The translations under genes were made by a program, and so were the position numbers. This document shows positions 37,430-44,856 of a DNA stretch of 64,000 nucleotides, in pieces. This stretch comes from Psychrobacter sp. TAE2020 (GTDB taxonomy: Bacteria > Pseudomonadota > Gammaproteobacteria > Pseudomonadales > Moraxellaceae), in assembly GCF_018919485.1 (NCBI RefSeq), contig NZ_JAHLMU010000001.1, forward strand, positions 38,655 to 102,654. Reading direction: 5' to 3'. Each line of letters starts with the position of its first letter. Position 1 is the first letter of the stretch. Under the pieces are notes generated by a model. That model saw nothing but the letters and a program-made list of their open reading frames with translations. It did not search any database and had not been told where the DNA came from.

Positions 37430-38380
37430 ATGAAAAATGTAAAAAGTGGTGTTAATGTATCGGTGGTTTGGCAAGTGCCAACAGGATTAGCTGCGCGTGC
37501 TGCGTTAGCATTTTTAGTCTGTACCACCAGCATCAGTAGTTATGCAGCGGTCTTGAGTGTCGATAACGAACGCCGGATACAAGTTCGTCAGGGTAATAAT
37601 GATAATAGCAATGCCTATATAACCCCTGCACCATATCGCCAGCAGATAACTGGTGATAATATGCAAGGCCTTATCGAACAAAAACAGCGCCAATATGAAT
37701 TCGATGCCAAGGTATCAATAGAAGAAAGTAAGCGGGTAAATATTAAGCCGCGTACCCCTAGTTACAACACTAGCTATAGTACTAGTAATAATAGTTATAA
37801 TACGAGCTATAACAACTATGACGACTTTAGTAGCATGGATTTCAATAGCTGGCTAAATAGCAACCGCTGGCGTGCTCAACAAGTAGCCAGCTATAAAAGT
37901 TATCTCACCTCAAGACTTGGAGCGCAGAATGTTCCGCCACTTGAGCAGCTATTAACAACAGCTCGTAGCTGGGACAAATGTGGCTATGAGCCTTATCAGC
38001 TACCACCGCAAGAGTTGTGGTCAAACATAGTACCGACGTTACGGCTGTATAGTGACCTAAAAGCTCAAGGTATCTTACCAGCTAGCACTGAAATACGTTC
38101 GGTATATCGTAGTCCAAGCCTTAATGCTTGTGCTGGTGGTGCTGACGGCAGCAAACACATGACCGCAGGTGCCATGGATATTTGGGTGCCTGAGTATGAG
38201 AGTAGTCCATGGCGTGTTAGTAATATGCAGGACAGTTTGTGTCAGTTTTGGCAGTATCAAGGCAGCGCTTATAACTTTGGTTTAGGATTATATTCAACAG
38301 GGGCTATTCATTTAGATACTGAAGGCTATCGAAAGTGGGGTTTTCAGCATGCCAACAGCGCTTCAGCCTGTCGTTACTAA
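37430..38380 (+). CDS. M15-family D-Ala-D-Ala carboxypeptidase-like protein
   Basis: Exported zinc peptidase expected to cut peptidoglycan stems. A signal sequence ends near residue 40 (SISSYAAVLS). Residues 110-140 are a low-complexity Asn/Ser/Tyr/Thr linker, and the M15 domain is at 170-310. Zinc ligands fit the family: H243 and D250 in SKHMTAGAMDI, and H294 with D296 in GAIHLDTEGY. Four cysteines lie in or beside the domain. Next to rodA and rlpA, a role in wall remodelling is likely; the exact bond cut is unknown. It is monocistronic, with a terminator 280 bp downstream. Confidence 0.85.
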   Translation: MKNVKSGVNVSVVWQVPTGLAARAALAFLVCTTSISSYAAVLSVDNERRIQVRQGNNDNSNAYITPAPYRQQITGDNMQGLIEQKQRQYEFDAKVSIEESKRVNIKPRTPSYNTSYSTSNNSYNTSYNNYDDFSSMDFNSWLNSNRWRAQQVASYKSYLTSRLGAQNVPPLEQLLTTARSWDKCGYEPYQLPPQELWSNIVPTLRLYSDLKAQGILPASTEIRSVYRSPSLNACAGGADGSKHMTAGAMDIWVPEYESSPWRVSNMQDSLCQFWQYQGSAYNFGLGLYSTGAIHLDTEGYRKWGFQHANSASACRY

Positions 38381-38790
38381 TTAGTAAGAGCGACTAACTG
38401 TAGTCATGGCTATAGGATAGTAGCTGTCTATTTGAGTACCGCTATTCGGATACCGATATTACTAAGATAAACAATATAAATCATAGACTTAAGTTGGTTT
38501 GTTAATTTAAAAGTATTAGCTATTTATTAATCAATATTCAGTGCTAAGCAGTCTGTATTGACTATTATTACCTCATATCAAGAAGTCGTTTTCTATATGA
38601 TTAGAGGGTCACATTGACGTATAAGTCATATATAACTATAAATATTTCAAACAAATGTGTTTAAATAGCCCATAATAATGGGCTATTTTTTTAAGTTTTA
38701 TTTATAACTATAGTTTTGCAATAAGTACTTTTTCTCAATAGAGTTGTTGAACTCACAGTAACTTGATTACAATTATAATAAGTGATATCC
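38381..38790. other. Intergenic region with a distal terminator
   Basis: 410 bp with no gene. A clear terminator sits at 38664-38692. The rest is AT-rich. Confidence 0.5.
38664..38692 (+). terminator. Rho-independent terminator after the M15 peptidase gene
   Basis: AATAGCCCAT (38664-38673), loop AATA, ATGGGCTATT (38678-38687), then T tract. It lies about 280 bp from the stop codon of the M15 gene. Confidence 0.9.
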
Positions 38791-39354
38791 ATGAATGTAT
38801 TAAGCTTAGGGCTGGCTGATAAGACCGTGCATCAGCAACAAAACTATTATCTATTAAAGGCCAAAGCACTGCGTTTAAGTTTACAGCTTATTATAGTATC
38901 AGCGCTAGTGGCAACTTCTGGTTGTTTACCAAAGGATAGTGACAAAGTTGTCGATAATGAAGCTGCACTCGGACAACAAAGAAAGCAAAATATGGAGGAG
39001 ATAAAAAACAGCATTAATAACTCTTATGCACTTTTAGCTGCTAGAAGTGCTGATATCTGCCCCAAATTGCTGCAAAAGGATATTGATACCAATGTCATAG
39101 AGCGAGTGCAGGAAGTCATGGTAGATGACTACTGTGAATATTATCTATATCCAAAAATCGATCAACGTATAACTGTCAAGCTTAGCGATGATAAAATCGA
39201 AGCTTTATTGGTAGTACCAAAATTATATAATTTCGCTGATGGCGATTACAAAGTACTCTCTTATGATAAGCATGTGATCCGTTTAGCCTATAACGGAGCT
39301 ACCTATAAGCCTGAGCGTTTTATTTATGACGTAGTGATTGAGCTTATAGACTAA
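38791..39354 (+). CDS. Hypothetical lipoprotein
   Basis: A 187-residue protein of no family I recognise. Counting from ATG 38791 it has an unusually long hydrophilic N-region of about 27 residues, a hydrophobic stretch (LSLQLIIVSALVA) and the lipobox TSGC. After the cysteine is a charged segment (KDSDKVVDNEAALGQQRKQN), then a mixed alpha/beta domain with two cysteines about 23 residues apart. An in-frame GTG at 38782 would add three residues. The ribosome binding site is weak. It converges on the M16 pair with only 30 bp between stops. Confidence 0.6.
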   Translation: MNVLSLGLADKTVHQQQNYYLLKAKALRLSLQLIIVSALVATSGCLPKDSDKVVDNEAALGQQRKQNMEEIKNSINNSYALLAARSADICPKLLQKDIDTNVIERVQEVMVDDYCEYYLYPKIDQRITVKLSDDKIEALLVVPKLYNFADGDYKVLSYDKHVIRLAYNGATYKPERFIYDVVIELID

Positions 39355-39384: not shown

Positions 39385-40887
39385 CTATTGATGTTTAGCG
39401 CTAGTCTTGTTCCAAGGATTGTCTTGTCCTACGGTGACGATTAAGAAGTTATTAGGATCTAAAGTATCACGCAAGGTCTTATTCACTTCAGCGAGCTGTA
39501 CATTATTGATCCGACTCACATAGTTGGTTAAATAATCATCAGGCAGCTTATAGAAGTTCATTGTCCCTAGCAAACCATTGATACCGCTATTACTAGCAAA
39601 GCTCATCGGAAAGCTATTCTTTAAATTGTCTGTGGTCAGCTGCATCTCACTAGCCGTTATACCTTGCGCTAAAGTCTCATTAATCACCTTCAAACTAGCA
39701 TCTATAGCCATACGAGCTTTATCATTACGTGTCGAAAAGCTTATTTGATAAGGTCCACGAGTGAGCATAGGGTTCATCGAGCCAGATATCCCATAAGTAT
39801 AGCCAAGGTTCTGTCTAATTTCAGTCATCAATCGAGCATTGAAATCACCCCCTGCTAGTACTTCATTACCGACGGCAAAGTTAGTTTGTTGCTGTTGTTC
39901 TTTAGGATCAGTAGCGCGCTTACTGCCTAGCTGTCCCATTAGGACGGTAGTTTGACTACTAGGAAAGTCAATATGAATATGCTGACCTTTAGTCAAAGCC
40001 CTAGGTTCAGCTAACACGCTGGCTGCTTGGCCTTTAGATAAGTTTGCGGTAATATCTTCAGCGAGCTTTTTGGCTTGATTTACGCTCAAATTACCAGTTA
40101 TGGCCAATGAAGCATTAGCGGCTACTAAATAACGATCTTTAAAAGCGATTAAGTCTTGTTGTTCGATACTAGGTACACTGGCAAGGGTGCCAGAGGAGGG
40201 GTGAGCATAAGGGTGATTACCATATAATGCCTCGTTAAAAGCTAAGCTGGCAAGACTGCCGGGATCTTGTTTTTGTTGCTGAAGGCCGACTAACAGTCGC
40301 GCTTTATTACGCGCTAAAGTAGCTTTATCAAAGCTAGGCTCAGTGAGCATCTGAGTCATCAAATCAACAGCTGGCAATAAATGTTCATCATCAGAGAGAC
40401 TGCGAAGGGAGATAATAAACATATCTTTATAAGCGCTACTGTTTAGATCGATACCTAAAGTCTCGACCGCCCGAGTAAAGTCATTTTCAGCTAACTTTTT
40501 GGAGCCTTGCGTCAACATAGTAGCGGTCATACTAGCAATACCAAAACCATCTATACGTAGACTACCATCCCGCGCACTACCTGCATTAAAACGTAAATCA
40601 ATATCGACAATCGGTAGAGCAGCTGCCCGTACGAAAGAGACGGGAACGCCAGATTGGGTGTTGAAGTGCACAATACTTGGTACAGTAACTTTTAGCGGTT
40701 TGGCATTATTGATGCTAGTGAGCGTAGATAAGGCCGCAATAGGCGCACTGTTATCAATCATAGCTGGCGCTCGATAGTCTGTAGCCTCTTCTGCTTGCGC
40801 TGGCGTGGCCAAAGTTGTAAGTCCTACTAGCACTGCCATACTAACAGTGGATGCTGTGGTCATTTTTTTATTTTTCATTACTGTCAT
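39385..40887 (-). CDS. M16-family peptidase-like protein, inactive subunit
   Basis: Periplasmic partner subunit of the downstream member of a two-gene M16 pair. It lacks the zinc motif HxxEH in the place where it should be (after NAGSARDG, DGFGIASMTATML). It keeps the R/Y pair in LMTEIRQNLGYTYGISGS that in M16 heterodimers completes the active site of the partner. A signal peptide ends at PAQA-EEA. Start choice is open: 40887 with GAGG 11 bp upstream is used; 40878 and a longer frame to 40956 are also open. The gap to the catalytic gene contains a 9-bp tandem repeat. Confidence 0.88.
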   Translation of the reverse strand: MTVMKNKKMTTASTVSMAVLVGLTTLATPAQAEEATDYRAPAMIDNSAPIAALSTLTSINNAKPLKVTVPSIVHFNTQSGVPVSFVRAAALPIVDIDLRFNAGSARDGSLRIDGFGIASMTATMLTQGSKKLAENDFTRAVETLGIDLNSSAYKDMFIISLRSLSDDEHLLPAVDLMTQMLTEPSFDKATLARNKARLLVGLQQQKQDPGSLASLAFNEALYGNHPYAHPSSGTLASVPSIEQQDLIAFKDRYLVAANASLAITGNLSVNQAKKLAEDITANLSKGQAASVLAEPRALTKGQHIHIDFPSSQTTVLMGQLGSKRATDPKEQQQQTNFAVGNEVLAGGDFNARLMTEIRQNLGYTYGISGSMNPMLTRGPYQISFSTRNDKARMAIDASLKVINETLAQGITASEMQLTTDNLKNSFPMSFASNSGINGLLGTMNFYKLPDDYLTNYVSRINNVQLAEVNKTLRDTLDPNNFLIVTVGQDNPWNKTSAKHQ

Positions 40888-40968
40888 TATATGGGTCGCC
40901 TCATAGCTTTTAACGAGCATAAGCTTTGCTTTGGTTTCTACATTAAAGTAAAGCAAAATGTTATTTAG

Positions 40969-41004
40969 TTTACCTAGTTTACCTAGTTTACCTAGTTTGG
41001 TTAG
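40969..41004. repeat. 9-bp tandem repeat between the two M16 genes
   Basis: TTTACCTAG occurs three times exactly (40969-40995) with a degenerate fourth copy TTTGGTTAG after it. It overlaps the stop of the upstream gene. Confidence 0.9.
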
Positions 41005-42470
41005 TTATTAGTATTATCCGCCAAGCCCGCTTTATCAGCGGCTTTTTTGGGGGGTATAATATACATAACCGTCAAGTTATTCTTGACTAGATATTGTTTG
41101 CTCACTGCTTTAATATCGGTAACCGATACGCTATCAAGTTTAGCAGGCAAACTTGCCAGTAATCGATCATCTAAGCCAATAGTTTGCAGCGAGCCTATCA
41201 TCCGTGCTTGTCCTTCCATGCTATCTTGGGCATAAACTAAGCTAGTAACCGTATTAGTCTTGGCACGGCTAATTTCGTCAGGGGCTATTGGGTCTGTGGC
41301 TAGTTTGTCAATTTCAGCAGTGATAGCTTGTTGTGCTTGATCCAAACTGACTCCTTCGCGCGGTGTCGCTTGGATCAAGAACAGTCCATCACCGCGATCT
41401 AGTAAGTCATAAGAAGTACCAATAGAAGTTAATAAGCCTTGCTCACGTATTAGTCGACTCTCTAGTCGCGCAGACAGACCACCATCTAACACGTCTTGTG
41501 CCAATGATAGGGCGTAGGCTTGCTTTTCATTAGCCGCTCCAACAGTTAATAAGCTTGGTACATTATAGCCCATCAATAATACTGGTACTTGCACCGCTTG
41601 CTCTGACTCTACCTGCTGGTAACCACGAAAGCCTTTTTGACGGACTGCTGGGCGCTGCGGTAACTTACTGGCTTTAAGCTCACCAAAGTAGCGTTTTGCT
41701 TGAGCCAAGACTTCCGTTGGTTCGACATCGCCAACGATTACTAAAGTGGCATTATTAGGCGTATACCAAGTCTTATACCAGTCTTTTAACTCATCAAGCT
41801 TAATAGATTGCAGCTCGTTCATCGGCCCAATCACAGACTCCCCTTTTGGGCTATCAGGTAAGGCTAGCAGGCGAAATGATTCGTAAGCTTTGGCTAGCGG
41901 ATTGTCATCAGTACGTTGACGACGTTCTTCCATAACCACTTGATGCTCTTTGGTAAAAGCGTCCTCATCAAAACGCAAATTCAGCATCCGATCGGCTTCT
42001 AATTCTAGCGCTAATGGCAAACGATTAGCCGGAAATAGCTCATAATAGCCAGTATAATCGTAGCTAGTAAAAGCATTATTCACCCCACCAAATTTTGCGA
42101 TCAGGCGTTCATAGTCATCGCTTGAAACCTTAGCTGTGCCTTTAAACATCATGTGTTCAAGTAAGTGTGAGATGCCGCCTTTATTTAACGGCTCATCAGT
42201 AGAGCCCACCTTGTACCAGATCTGAGTCATAACTACGGGCGCACGGTGATCTTCTTTTACAATGATTTTTAGACCATTATCCAGCTGATATTCGTGGCGT
42301 CCTGATAAGTCTATAGCTAAGGCAGATGACCCAACATCTGGTGGTGCTACTTTTTGCTGAATAGTTTGATAGTCGGGATGATTTGCATTAAGTTGACTGG
42401 TTTGGCAAGCCGCAAGACTAGTAGCAAGCGCTAGAGCACAAGCAATACGTAAAGTTAGAGAAGATGACAT
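41001..42470 (-). CDS. M16-family zinc peptidase, catalytic subunit
   Basis: Pitrilysin/insulinase-type metalloprotease, likely periplasmic. The inverted zinc motif is HLLEHMMFKGT (H-x-x-E-H), with the third ligand further on in KEHQVVMEERRQ. An N-terminal signal with lipobox LAAC (residue 22) suggests a lipoprotein. The second gene of the pair has the R/Y motif instead, so the two products should form one active heterodimer that digests peptides. It follows two tiny lipoprotein genes on the same strand. Confidence 0.92.
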   Translation of the reverse strand: MSSSLTLRIACALALATSLAACQTSQLNANHPDYQTIQQKVAPPDVGSSALAIDLSGRHEYQLDNGLKIIVKEDHRAPVVMTQIWYKVGSTDEPLNKGGISHLLEHMMFKGTAKVSSDDYERLIAKFGGVNNAFTSYDYTGYYELFPANRLPLALELEADRMLNLRFDEDAFTKEHQVVMEERRQRTDDNPLAKAYESFRLLALPDSPKGESVIGPMNELQSIKLDELKDWYKTWYTPNNATLVIVGDVEPTEVLAQAKRYFGELKASKLPQRPAVRQKGFRGYQQVESEQAVQVPVLLMGYNVPSLLTVGAANEKQAYALSLAQDVLDGGLSARLESRLIREQGLLTSIGTSYDLLDRGDGLFLIQATPREGVSLDQAQQAITAEIDKLATDPIAPDEISRAKTNTVTSLVYAQDSMEGQARMIGSLQTIGLDDRLLASLPAKLDSVSVTDIKAVSKQYLVKNNLTVMYIIPPKKAADKAGLADNTNN

Positions 42471-42540
42471 AGTATTTTCTACTTATAAAATGACGATTAA
42501 AATAAATCTAGCTAAGTACGACGATCAGCTCAATACAATA

Positions 42541-42771
42541 TCATAGAGAGTTTTTGATGTCAGAAATCAAAATAGCTGTTGGTTCAAGCGCTTGCAGAGT
42601 GTTACAACCTACAGTTAAAGCAGACAAAGCTACAATAATAAAGCTGGATATTAGCTTACTAGATTTGCTGTACTGAGTTTGGTCATGCCTGGTTAGTTGC
42701 CGCCTAAATACTTTATCACTAGCATAGTTTGACTGGGGCCTTAATAAAGAGCGTTGTGGCGTAAATGACAT
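42541..42771 (-). CDS. Small lipoprotein 2
   Basis: A 76-residue product with a long basic N-region (about 38 residues), a hydrophobic stretch (LISSFIIVALSALTV) and lipobox TVGC. The mature part is only 21 residues. AGGATTGG before ATG 42771 gives a good ribosome binding site, so the long N-region appears real. Its mature part aligns without gaps to the next upstream gene product: C, T3, P-T-A at 9-11, and S-L at the end are shared (7 of 21 identical). Function unknown; the M16 pair follows on the same strand. Confidence 0.6.
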   Translation of the reverse strand: MSFTPQRSLLRPQSNYASDKVFRRQLTRHDQTQYSKSSKLISSFIIVALSALTVGCNTLQALEPTAILISDIKNSL

Positions 42772-42845
42772 GACCAATCCTGTTTATATAAAATAGTGTT
42801 TTAAAGCGCTAAAGGTAGACTCTGTAACTAAGTTTATAAGGCAGC

Positions 42846-42998
42846 TTATAACGACTTATGTGCGCCGACCATGACACTAGCAGTTGGCTTAAATTCATGA
42901 GTAGTACTACAGCCCGTGGCGGATAGGACGGTTGCTGTTAGCAAAAACGCCAAACCTAGATAATTAAGTTTTTTATAAAAATTAGCAGTCAATAACAT
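42846..42998 (-). CDS. Small lipoprotein 1
   Basis: A 50-residue product: basic N-region MLLTANFYKKLN, hydrophobic YLGLAFLLTATVLSA, lipobox ATGC, and a 21-residue mature tail containing KPTASVMVG and ending KSL. It has the same layout and length of mature tail as small lipoprotein 2, 74 bp downstream. The start has a weak GAGA ribosome binding site. It would be the first gene of a reverse-strand run with lipoprotein 2 and both M16 genes. Function unknown. Confidence 0.6.
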   Translation of the reverse strand: MLLTANFYKKLNYLGLAFLLTATVLSATGCSTTHEFKPTASVMVGAHKSL

Positions 42999-43356
42999 AA
43001 GTTTTCTCAATAGAATAAGGGCTTAACTAGCATAGGCGAAGTTTAGCACGTTCAAGGTCTTAGTTTTGTGTCTGAATCTTAAGAGAAACTATCTTGATTA
43101 CCCAGCGCATACTCAATAGTTAGCTAATTAGCTGGCTGCGGTTTACTCACTGGTCAGCAAACCAAGCTAAGGTCAATAATATAGCTAAGAATGCGAAATG
43201 CAGCTTATAAAATACCTATGAGATTAGCATTGTCAAAAATGAGCGCCAACTGAATTATGCTAAACTAGGCAAAATTATTAGCTATAGATCCGATAGCTTA
43301 GAAAATCACTTTAGAATAAACCCATTAATAATAATGCTAACTTGTAGGGCAAATTT
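42999..43356. other. Divergent region between small lipoprotein 1 and ftsY
   Basis: 358 bp expected to hold promoters for both directions. I see weak TTGTCA/AATTAT (plus) and TTGAAC/TATGCT (minus) pairs only. No gene. Confidence 0.35.
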
Positions 43357-44856
43357 ATGAATAATCCGAACAACAGCAATCGTGTGGTCATCAATCTCGA
43401 TGGTAGTCTTGATGATTTAGATGACGATGACATCACCTTACCCAGTTTGCCCACTCAATCAGTAGCTATTGTCGATGAAGCGCTGAGTGAACCGGACTTA
43501 CCATCTGTATCAGACACTAGTGTTACTAGCACCGCTGCTATTGATACAGGCCTTAGTGATAGCAAGCCTACTGACAATCAAGCACTTGTTGATAGAGGGC
43601 TATCTAGTGCTACGGCGGTAGGTAACATAGCTTTAGGCGCGCCACTAATAGCTCCTGAATTCGATAGTAAGCCTGAAGATACAGCGATTAGCGATCATAA
43701 TGTTGTACAGTCGGCTGTTGCACAAGCGGCTATACCGAAGATGCCTCTGCAAGCGCAGCTAGGTGACAATCTTAGTAGCAGTAGCAGTAGCAGTAGCAGT
43801 AGCAGTAGCAGTACTATTAACAGCGTTACTGATAGCATTACTGACAGTAATAGCGCTATAAGCTCAACCACAGCACCAGAAACGCAGAGTGAGGCAGCAC
43901 AGAGCGATGAACCCCAAGGTCGACAAAAAGGCAGCTGGTTCAATCGCATGAAGTCGGGACTGTCCAAATCACGTAAAAACTTAGCCGGTGGGATGGTCAA
44001 TATACTTATCGGTGGTAAAGAAATCGATGATGAGCTGTTAGAAGAAGTCGAAGATCAGTTATTGGTTGCTGATATTGGGGTCAATGCGACTAATCGTATT
44101 ATTAAAAATTTGACTGAACAAACCAATCGTGGTGATTTGATCTATGCCCACTCATTATATAAAGCGTTACAAAATGAGCTAGTTGATATTCTCACTCCTA
44201 AAGTAGCTCCGCTAGTGATAGACAGCAGCAAACAGCCTTTTGTTATTTTGGTAGTTGGAGTCAATGGGGTAGGTAAAACGACTACTATCGGTAAGCTTGC
44301 CAAACGTCTGCAAGGTGAGGGCAAGTCAGTGATGCTAGCCGCTGGTGATACTTTCCGAGCCGCTGCTACTGAGCAGTTACAGATTTGGGGAGATCGCAAT
44401 AATATTCCGGTGGTGGCACAAGGTCACGGCTCTGATAGTGCCTCAGTTATTTTTGATGCTATGCAATCAGCCAAAGCAAAAAATATCGATGTGTTGATTG
44501 CTGATACTGCTGGGCGTTTGCAGAATAAAACTTATCTTATGAATGAATTAGAAAAAGTAGTGCGTGTCATGCGTAAAGCTGATCCTACTGCGCCACACGA
44601 AGGCATGATCGTCCTCGATGCAGGCACTGGTCAAAACGCTATTAATCAAGTGGAGCTGTTTAATAAAGTGGTTCCTCTAACAGGGATTACTATTACTAAA
44701 TTAGATGGGACGGCTAAAGGAGGCGTAGTATTCAATATCGCTGAAACCACGGATGTGCCTATTCGTTATATCGGGGTTGGTGAGTCAATCGATGATCTAC
44801 GCGCCTTTAGTCCTAAACAGTTTGTGGCTGCGTTGTTTGAAACTGATGATGTCTAA
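43357..44856 (+). CDS. ftsY: Signal recognition particle receptor FtsY
   Basis: GTPase that docks signal recognition particle and ribosome to the inner membrane. The acidic N-domain (about 1-190) is low in complexity and includes a run of about 13 serines coded by alternating AGT/AGC. A membrane-binding amphipathic segment is near SWFNRMKSGLSKSRKNL. The NG domain has GVNGVGKTTTIGKLAKRL, DTAGRLQNK and TKLDGTAKGG. At 499 residues it is typical for a long-A-domain FtsY. It is single and followed by ogt 52 bp later. Confidence 0.97.
   Translation: MNNPNNSNRVVINLDGSLDDLDDDDITLPSLPTQSVAIVDEALSEPDLPSVSDTSVTSTAAIDTGLSDSKPTDNQALVDRGLSSATAVGNIALGAPLIAPEFDSKPEDTAISDHNVVQSAVAQAAIPKMPLQAQLGDNLSSSSSSSSSSSSSTINSVTDSITDSNSAISSTTAPETQSEAAQSDEPQGRQKGSWFNRMKSGLSKSRKNLAGGMVNILIGGKEIDDELLEEVEDQLLVADIGVNATNRIIKNLTEQTNRGDLIYAHSLYKALQNELVDILTPKVAPLVIDSSKQPFVILVVGVNGVGKTTTIGKLAKRLQGEGKSVMLAAGDTFRAAATEQLQIWGDRNNIPVVAQGHGSDSASVIFDAMQSAKAKNIDVLIADTAGRLQNKTYLMNELEKVVRVMRKADPTAPHEGMIVLDAGTGQNAINQVELFNKVVPLTGITITKLDGTAKGGVVFNIAETTDVPIRYIGVGESIDDLRAFSPKQFVAALFETDDV
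43774..43812 (+). repeat. Hexanucleotide repeat coding for serines in ftsY
   Basis: AGTAGC is repeated six and a half times in frame. A change of one unit would add or remove two serines without shifting the frame. Confidence 0.9.

Follow-up and report, generated by a model that had tools for sequence, protein, structure and literature searches.

A family of tiny predicted lipoproteins in the Moraxellaceae, encoded beside an M16B protease pair in Psychrobacter

We analyzed a 64,000-nucleotide stretch (hereafter the window) of the 3.3 Mb genome of Psychrobacter sp. TAE2020, in which two very short genes, here called LP1 and LP2, precede the genes M16a and M16b of an M16B protease pair on the minus strand, in the order LP1, LP2, M16a, M16b. 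In an M16a search, the nearest named relatives were Psychrobacter species. A sequence-only reading of the window had described two related tiny lipoprotein frames ahead of an active/inactive M16 pair, and this description was confirmed by the open reading frames (ORFs), by the HLLEH motif of M16a and by structure matches of the M16 proteins. The features at the locus are as follows.

42846–42998, minus strand: LP1 gene, an ORF for a 50-residue preprotein; predicted Cys30; mature tail CSTTHEFKPTASVMVGAHKSL, 21 residues, codons 42911–42849.
42541–42771, minus strand: LP2 gene, an ORF for a 76-residue preprotein; predicted Cys56; mature tail CNTLQALEPTAILISDIKNSL, 21 residues, codons 42606–42544.
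41001–42470, minus strand: M16a, the catalytic subunit of the M16B peptidase; HLLEH motif at residue 102; PF00675 and PF05193 above cut-off.
39385–40887, minus strand: M16b, inactive M16B partner; M16 domains by Pfam; no HXXEH; ordinary signal peptide; presumed start, with the longest ORF running from 40956.
43027–43066, minus strand: promoter-like block upstream of LP1, AAACTAAGACCTTGAACGTGCTAAACTTCGCCTATGCTAG; recognizable in most of 25 aligned Psychrobacter loci.

As the sequence-only reading had noted, both predicted mature tails are exactly 21 residues long and have C1, T3, P9, T10, A11, S20 and L21 in common. The same length of 21 recurs in every Psychrobacter LP1 and LP2 tail read, with about 22 to 65 residues before the Cys; of the two scans of upstream regions used to examine tail length, one left it free and the other allowed 15–30 residues. 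The Psychrobacter tail core is [KR]PTASVMVG. The Cys is invariant in all aligned family members, where it follows a hydrophobic stretch and usually has G or A at position −1, so that lipidation is predicted. The residue after the Cys is S, N, T, A, Q or similar, and never D in the members read.

LP1 and LP2 are real genes that are easily overlooked, as the sequence-only reading had suspected. LP1 relatives (E ≤ 1e-5) occur in 92 of 105 Psychrobacter genomes, 104 of which encode M16a. LP1 stands beside the M16 pair in 91 of these 104, on the same strand as the M16a match and 89–567 nucleotides upstream of it; the locus of the 92nd genome is split between contigs. LP1 is thus conserved where the M16 pair is kept, in most Moraxella as well, so that for LP1 the loss of conservation that would have spoken against the sequence-only reading was not seen. 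In 12 Psychrobacter genomes M16a is present but the peptide is missing; their M16a is in every case at most 69% identical to the one in the window, and no candidate peptide was found in the upstream M16a regions read among them. Across 48 distinct LP1 tail DNAs, mean diversity at the first, second and third codon position was 0.08, 0.12 and 0.57, respectively. The ratio of summed nonsynonymous to summed synonymous divergence (sum dN/sum dS) was 0.07 for LP1 tails, a value biased low by picking the set by peptide motif, and 0.10 for LP2 tails; despite this picking, the concentration of LP1 tail changes at third positions is plain. Most LP1 orthologues have a Shine–Dalgarno-like ribosome-binding site, TTAGGAA, before the ATG. 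The upstream block has the consensus AAA.T..GAC.T...AAACTTCGCCTA..C.TA and resembles an extended −10 promoter, a putative assignment. Because no terminator-like site lies between LP1 and M16a in 22 of 25 species examined, a shared LP1–M16a transcript is possible.

It is well supported that LP1 belongs to a conserved Moraxellaceae family spanning three genera. We infer the genus labels Moraxella (g31) and Acinetobacter (g36), the latter with the backing of four records of A. baumannii, all of them encoding the same 34-residue family protein (74% identity). Most Moraxella genomes with M16a carry a tiny lipoprotein gene in the corresponding position, with tails of 18–24 residues such as CQSPNTIAIKPTASVMVGTNL and CTSVSPTASVMIGGTTTL. 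A profile built without any Acinetobacter sequence (A1) matched frames of 35–56 residues in Acinetobacter at E values down to 5e-7; the tails of these frames are nearly all 18 residues long, for example CSSMQVRPTASVSVGAGL and CSSMQVKPTVGVTMGTRI. The homology of the Psychrobacter, Moraxella and Acinetobacter tails is supported by comparisons of tail-only profiles (97% probability for Psychrobacter–Moraxella and 96% for Psychrobacter–Acinetobacter) and by a shuffle test, in which 13 of 17 Psychrobacter tails outscored the best of 20,000 shuffles against the Acinetobacter profile. Members were recognized by a tail of 18–24 residues with the core [KRS]PT[AVG][ST]VxVG, features shared by LP1 and the Psychrobacter, Moraxella and Acinetobacter members. 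With a broader profile (A2), a sample of 149 Moraxellaceae genomes gave clear short-frame matches in Psychrobacter, Moraxella, Acinetobacter and the related genus g30. Among 293 genomes of the order and 369 of the class, matches outside the family were weak (E at least 5e-5), fell in frames of at least 91 residues and covered mainly the signal peptide. No family model in Pfam or NCBIfam covers the LP1 and LP2 peptides, and a literature search found no description of the LP1 family.

The genomic setting of the family differs among genera. The sequence-only reading had proposed looking for the tail pattern near M16 pairs in Moraxellaceae; the family is found there in Psychrobacter and in most Moraxella with M16a, but the Acinetobacter genes all follow immediately after a BLH-phosphatase gene (PF04273) and not after M16, an arrangement also present in two g30 genomes. 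Of the Acinetobacter sampled, more than half have the peptide, A. baumannii included. Some Acinetobacter (L240 3068–3490, L243 2601–3035, L247 2566–2988) encode, beside the cytosolic copy, a second BLH-phosphatase with a signal peptide just before the peptide gene. We considered the BLH phosphatase as the true partner and rejected it as a constant one, because the PF04273 gene, present in most Moraxellaceae genera, lies elsewhere in Psychrobacter and Moraxella. BlhA of A. baumannii is a divisome protein (PMC7481262, PMC11975115); its identity with the peptide-side PF04273 gene could not be shown, and it was not used in the argument.

LP2 is probably a diverged tandem duplicate of LP1. Two family members occur in 21 Psychrobacter genomes, to which LP2 is limited, and in a few of them LP2 precedes LP1. 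The 13 distinct LP2 orthologue tails are all 21 residues long, with the consensus C.TLQALEPTAILISDIK..L. Duplication is suggested by the equal tail length, the adjacency of the two genes and the PTA and terminal L/I that they have in common. A tail-only profile comparison of LP1 and LP2 (hhalign) gave 83% probability, so that homology from sequence alone is only suggestive.

The M16 proteins have the make-up of an M16B heterodimer: M16a combines HXXEH with both M16 domains, and the adjacent homologous M16b lacks HXXEH. M16a matches the structures 4nnz and 3amj_C, labelled "active subunit," and M16b matches the "inactive subunit" chains 3gwb (E 1.8e-78) and 3amj_B (E 3.7e-61). M16a is itself a predicted lipoprotein (LAAC-Q, Cys22), a feature overlooked by the sequence-only reading. 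Its lipobox is kept across Psychrobacter, in most Moraxella and in part of g28, and orthologues in Acinetobacter and the outgroups have an ordinary signal peptide; M16a anchoring thus appears to have changed within the Moraxellaceae.

The explanation that we favor, to which we give an even chance, is that LP1 and LP2 are autonomous, probably outer-membrane lipopeptides whose short β-strand-like segment docks on an envelope partner. Each would be exported by means of its variable signal peptide, then cleaved and lipidated at the invariant Cys. Sorting would probably be to the outer membrane, given that Asp does not occur at position +2. The mature molecule would consist of the lipid, a short spacer, the core [KRS]PT[AVG][ST]VMVG with β-strand alternation, and a short C-terminal part, most often with L or I as its last residue. 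Its PTASVMVG segment would dock as an anchored strand on a protein of the envelope, through pairing of the backbones. The nearly constant tail length points to selection on the whole mature molecule and fits a docking strand better than either an ordinary spacer or an enzyme. The peptide would act independently of the M16 pair, its gene merely preceding the M16 genes in Psychrobacter and Moraxella. Its partner may be a component that only the Moraxellaceae have in their envelope. The family is among the smallest of lipoproteins, with mature parts of 18–21 residues conserved over their full length, which makes the smallest functional lipoprotein unit directly testable.

Several observations weigh against this explanation. 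The lipoboxes of LP1 and LP2 (SATG-C and LTVG-C) are atypical, with A and T, respectively, at −3 in place of L, V or I, and the prediction of lipidation is for that reason based on the invariant Cys; when the window was scanned with a strict lipobox pattern, in which −3 must be L, V or I, no lipobox was picked up, not even those of LP1 and LP2. When LP2 tails were put through the 20,000-shuffle test, none beat the best shuffle. A Psychrobacter subclade lacks the family, as do some Moraxella and many Acinetobacter, and it is therefore dispensable at the species level. The docking of a strand is suggested by residue alternation and constant length, and by these two features only. In Psychrobacter and Moraxella, finally, the neighbor of the peptide is nearly always M16a, itself a predicted lipoprotein there, which would fit a working link as well.

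Such a link is the core of the main rival, that LP1 and LP2 serve the M16 heterodimer as substrates, as inhibitors or as ligands that control its activity, the anchored peptide entering the chamber as a β-strand and being either cleaved or used to hold the enzyme at the membrane. It stays alive because M16 proteases take short peptides and bind them in extended form, as strands (PMC12731061). The upstream, same-strand position of LP1 in Psychrobacter with M16a speaks for it, as do the lack of a terminator-like site from LP1 to M16a in 22 of the 25 species and the predicted lipoprotein form of M16a in Psychrobacter and most Moraxella, as opposed to its ordinary signal peptide in Acinetobacter, which would anchor both partners to one membrane. 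Most Moraxella with M16a also have the peptide, and it is absent from the few sampled Moraxella without M16a. Outside these cases, however, the two separate. Among the Acinetobacter of the 149-genome sample, in which M16a orthologues were called at a cut-off of 1e-60 and the peptide/M16a groups were sorted by eye from two tables, 16 have the peptide only, while both are present in 8, M16a alone in 2 and neither in 14; the association is not significant (Fisher p = 0.26). Conversely, M16a occurs without the peptide in genus g28 as well as in the 12 Psychrobacter genomes. The peptide and the M16 pair are thus separable in both directions, and with 16 Acinetobacter and 12 Psychrobacter exceptions their co-occurrence is not obligatory. 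The location of the Acinetobacter and g30 genes behind the BLH-phosphatase gene likewise argues against an M16 ligand, and a substrate that is consumed has no need of a fixed length. We therefore regard M16 as a positional neighbor and not an obligatory partner; a role in the service of the heterodimer, as the sequence-only reading had proposed, was not upheld by these counts or by the restriction of LP2 to 21 genomes. As an explanation of the peptides, an M16 ligand strikes us as possible though doubtful.

We consider it improbable that the peptides are small, membrane-active lipoproteins like entericidins or lysis proteins, acting in stress-triggered lysis or as its antidote. Their size and lipoprotein layout are alike, mature starts such as CNTTQGF are entericidin-like, and one member gave a weak match to entericidin A (NF007319, E 0.017). 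Yet none of 24 members matched an entericidin Pfam model up to E 1, and membership in that family was rejected; the invariant Pro and strand-like core differ from an amphipathic helix, and one Moraxella genome (L250) encodes a separate entericidin-like protein. That LP1 and LP2 are leader or regulatory sequences of the M16 operon and not functional proteins is hardly credible: short frames ahead of a longer operon and a conserved upstream block would suit such a role, but variation falls mostly at third codon positions, the conserved part is the amino acids of the mature tail, and the Acinetobacter family has its own locus away from M16. A further reading, which we offer as a speculation with little claim to probability, is that a lipopeptide of constant length, about 20 residues, serves as a membrane-tethered strand ligand that switches or scaffolds a Moraxellaceae-specific envelope machine, and that, having come to stand next to an M16 protease that is itself a lipoprotein there, it became the resident ligand of this protease in Psychrobacter and Moraxella.

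The surroundings of the locus contain three further features. On the plus strand, a 190-residue predicted lipoprotein (38782–39354) is convergent with M16b; it has no convincing Pfam match, but two Psychrobacter relatives have counterparts, about 50% identical, at the corresponding position. In a 316-residue protein (37430–38380, plus strand), the Peptidase_M15_3 domain is C-terminal, and the long middle region is of low complexity and rich in Ser, Asn and Tyr. On the other side of LP1, a perfect hexanucleotide repeat, AGTAGC × 6.7, lies inside ftsY (43774–43813, plus strand) and encodes a poly-serine run in the variable N-terminal region. As to the origin of the small genes, a plasmid source was rejected, since no plasmid DNA matched and the A. 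baumannii records matched in the plasmid set were mostly chromosome-sized, one of them bearing hardly any annotation; a phage source was discarded in the absence of any meaningful phage match.

Among known systems, the M16B heterodimers SPH2681/SPH2682 (PDB 3amj) and TTHA1264/1265 resemble the protease pair of the window in that M16a and M16b match their active and inactive subunits; they differ in that the catalytic subunit in Psychrobacter and most Moraxella is a predicted lipoprotein with a tiny lipoprotein encoded upstream. The mature parts of entericidins A and B are roughly 20–30 residues long. Like the LP family, they are tiny lipoproteins with a similar CNT start, but they form a glycine/acid-rich helix, whereas the LP family has a Pro-centered strand-like core and no match to their Pfam model. 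Two NCBIfam models of small lipoproteins, NF038215 ("acineto_lipo_PV") and YgdI/YgdR, matched a few LP members weakly, far below the curated cut-offs and mainly over the signal peptide. A precedent for the way in which an LP peptide could act is LptM (YifL), a small outer-membrane lipoprotein that binds the lipopolysaccharide translocon LptDE, a complex of the envelope (PMC10567701). The conserved segment of LptM is a different one, PF13627, and both this genome and its relatives encode LptM in addition to the LP peptides; none of the 24 LP members matched PF13627, and membership of the LP family in LptM was rejected, which leaves LptM as a model for the mode of action.

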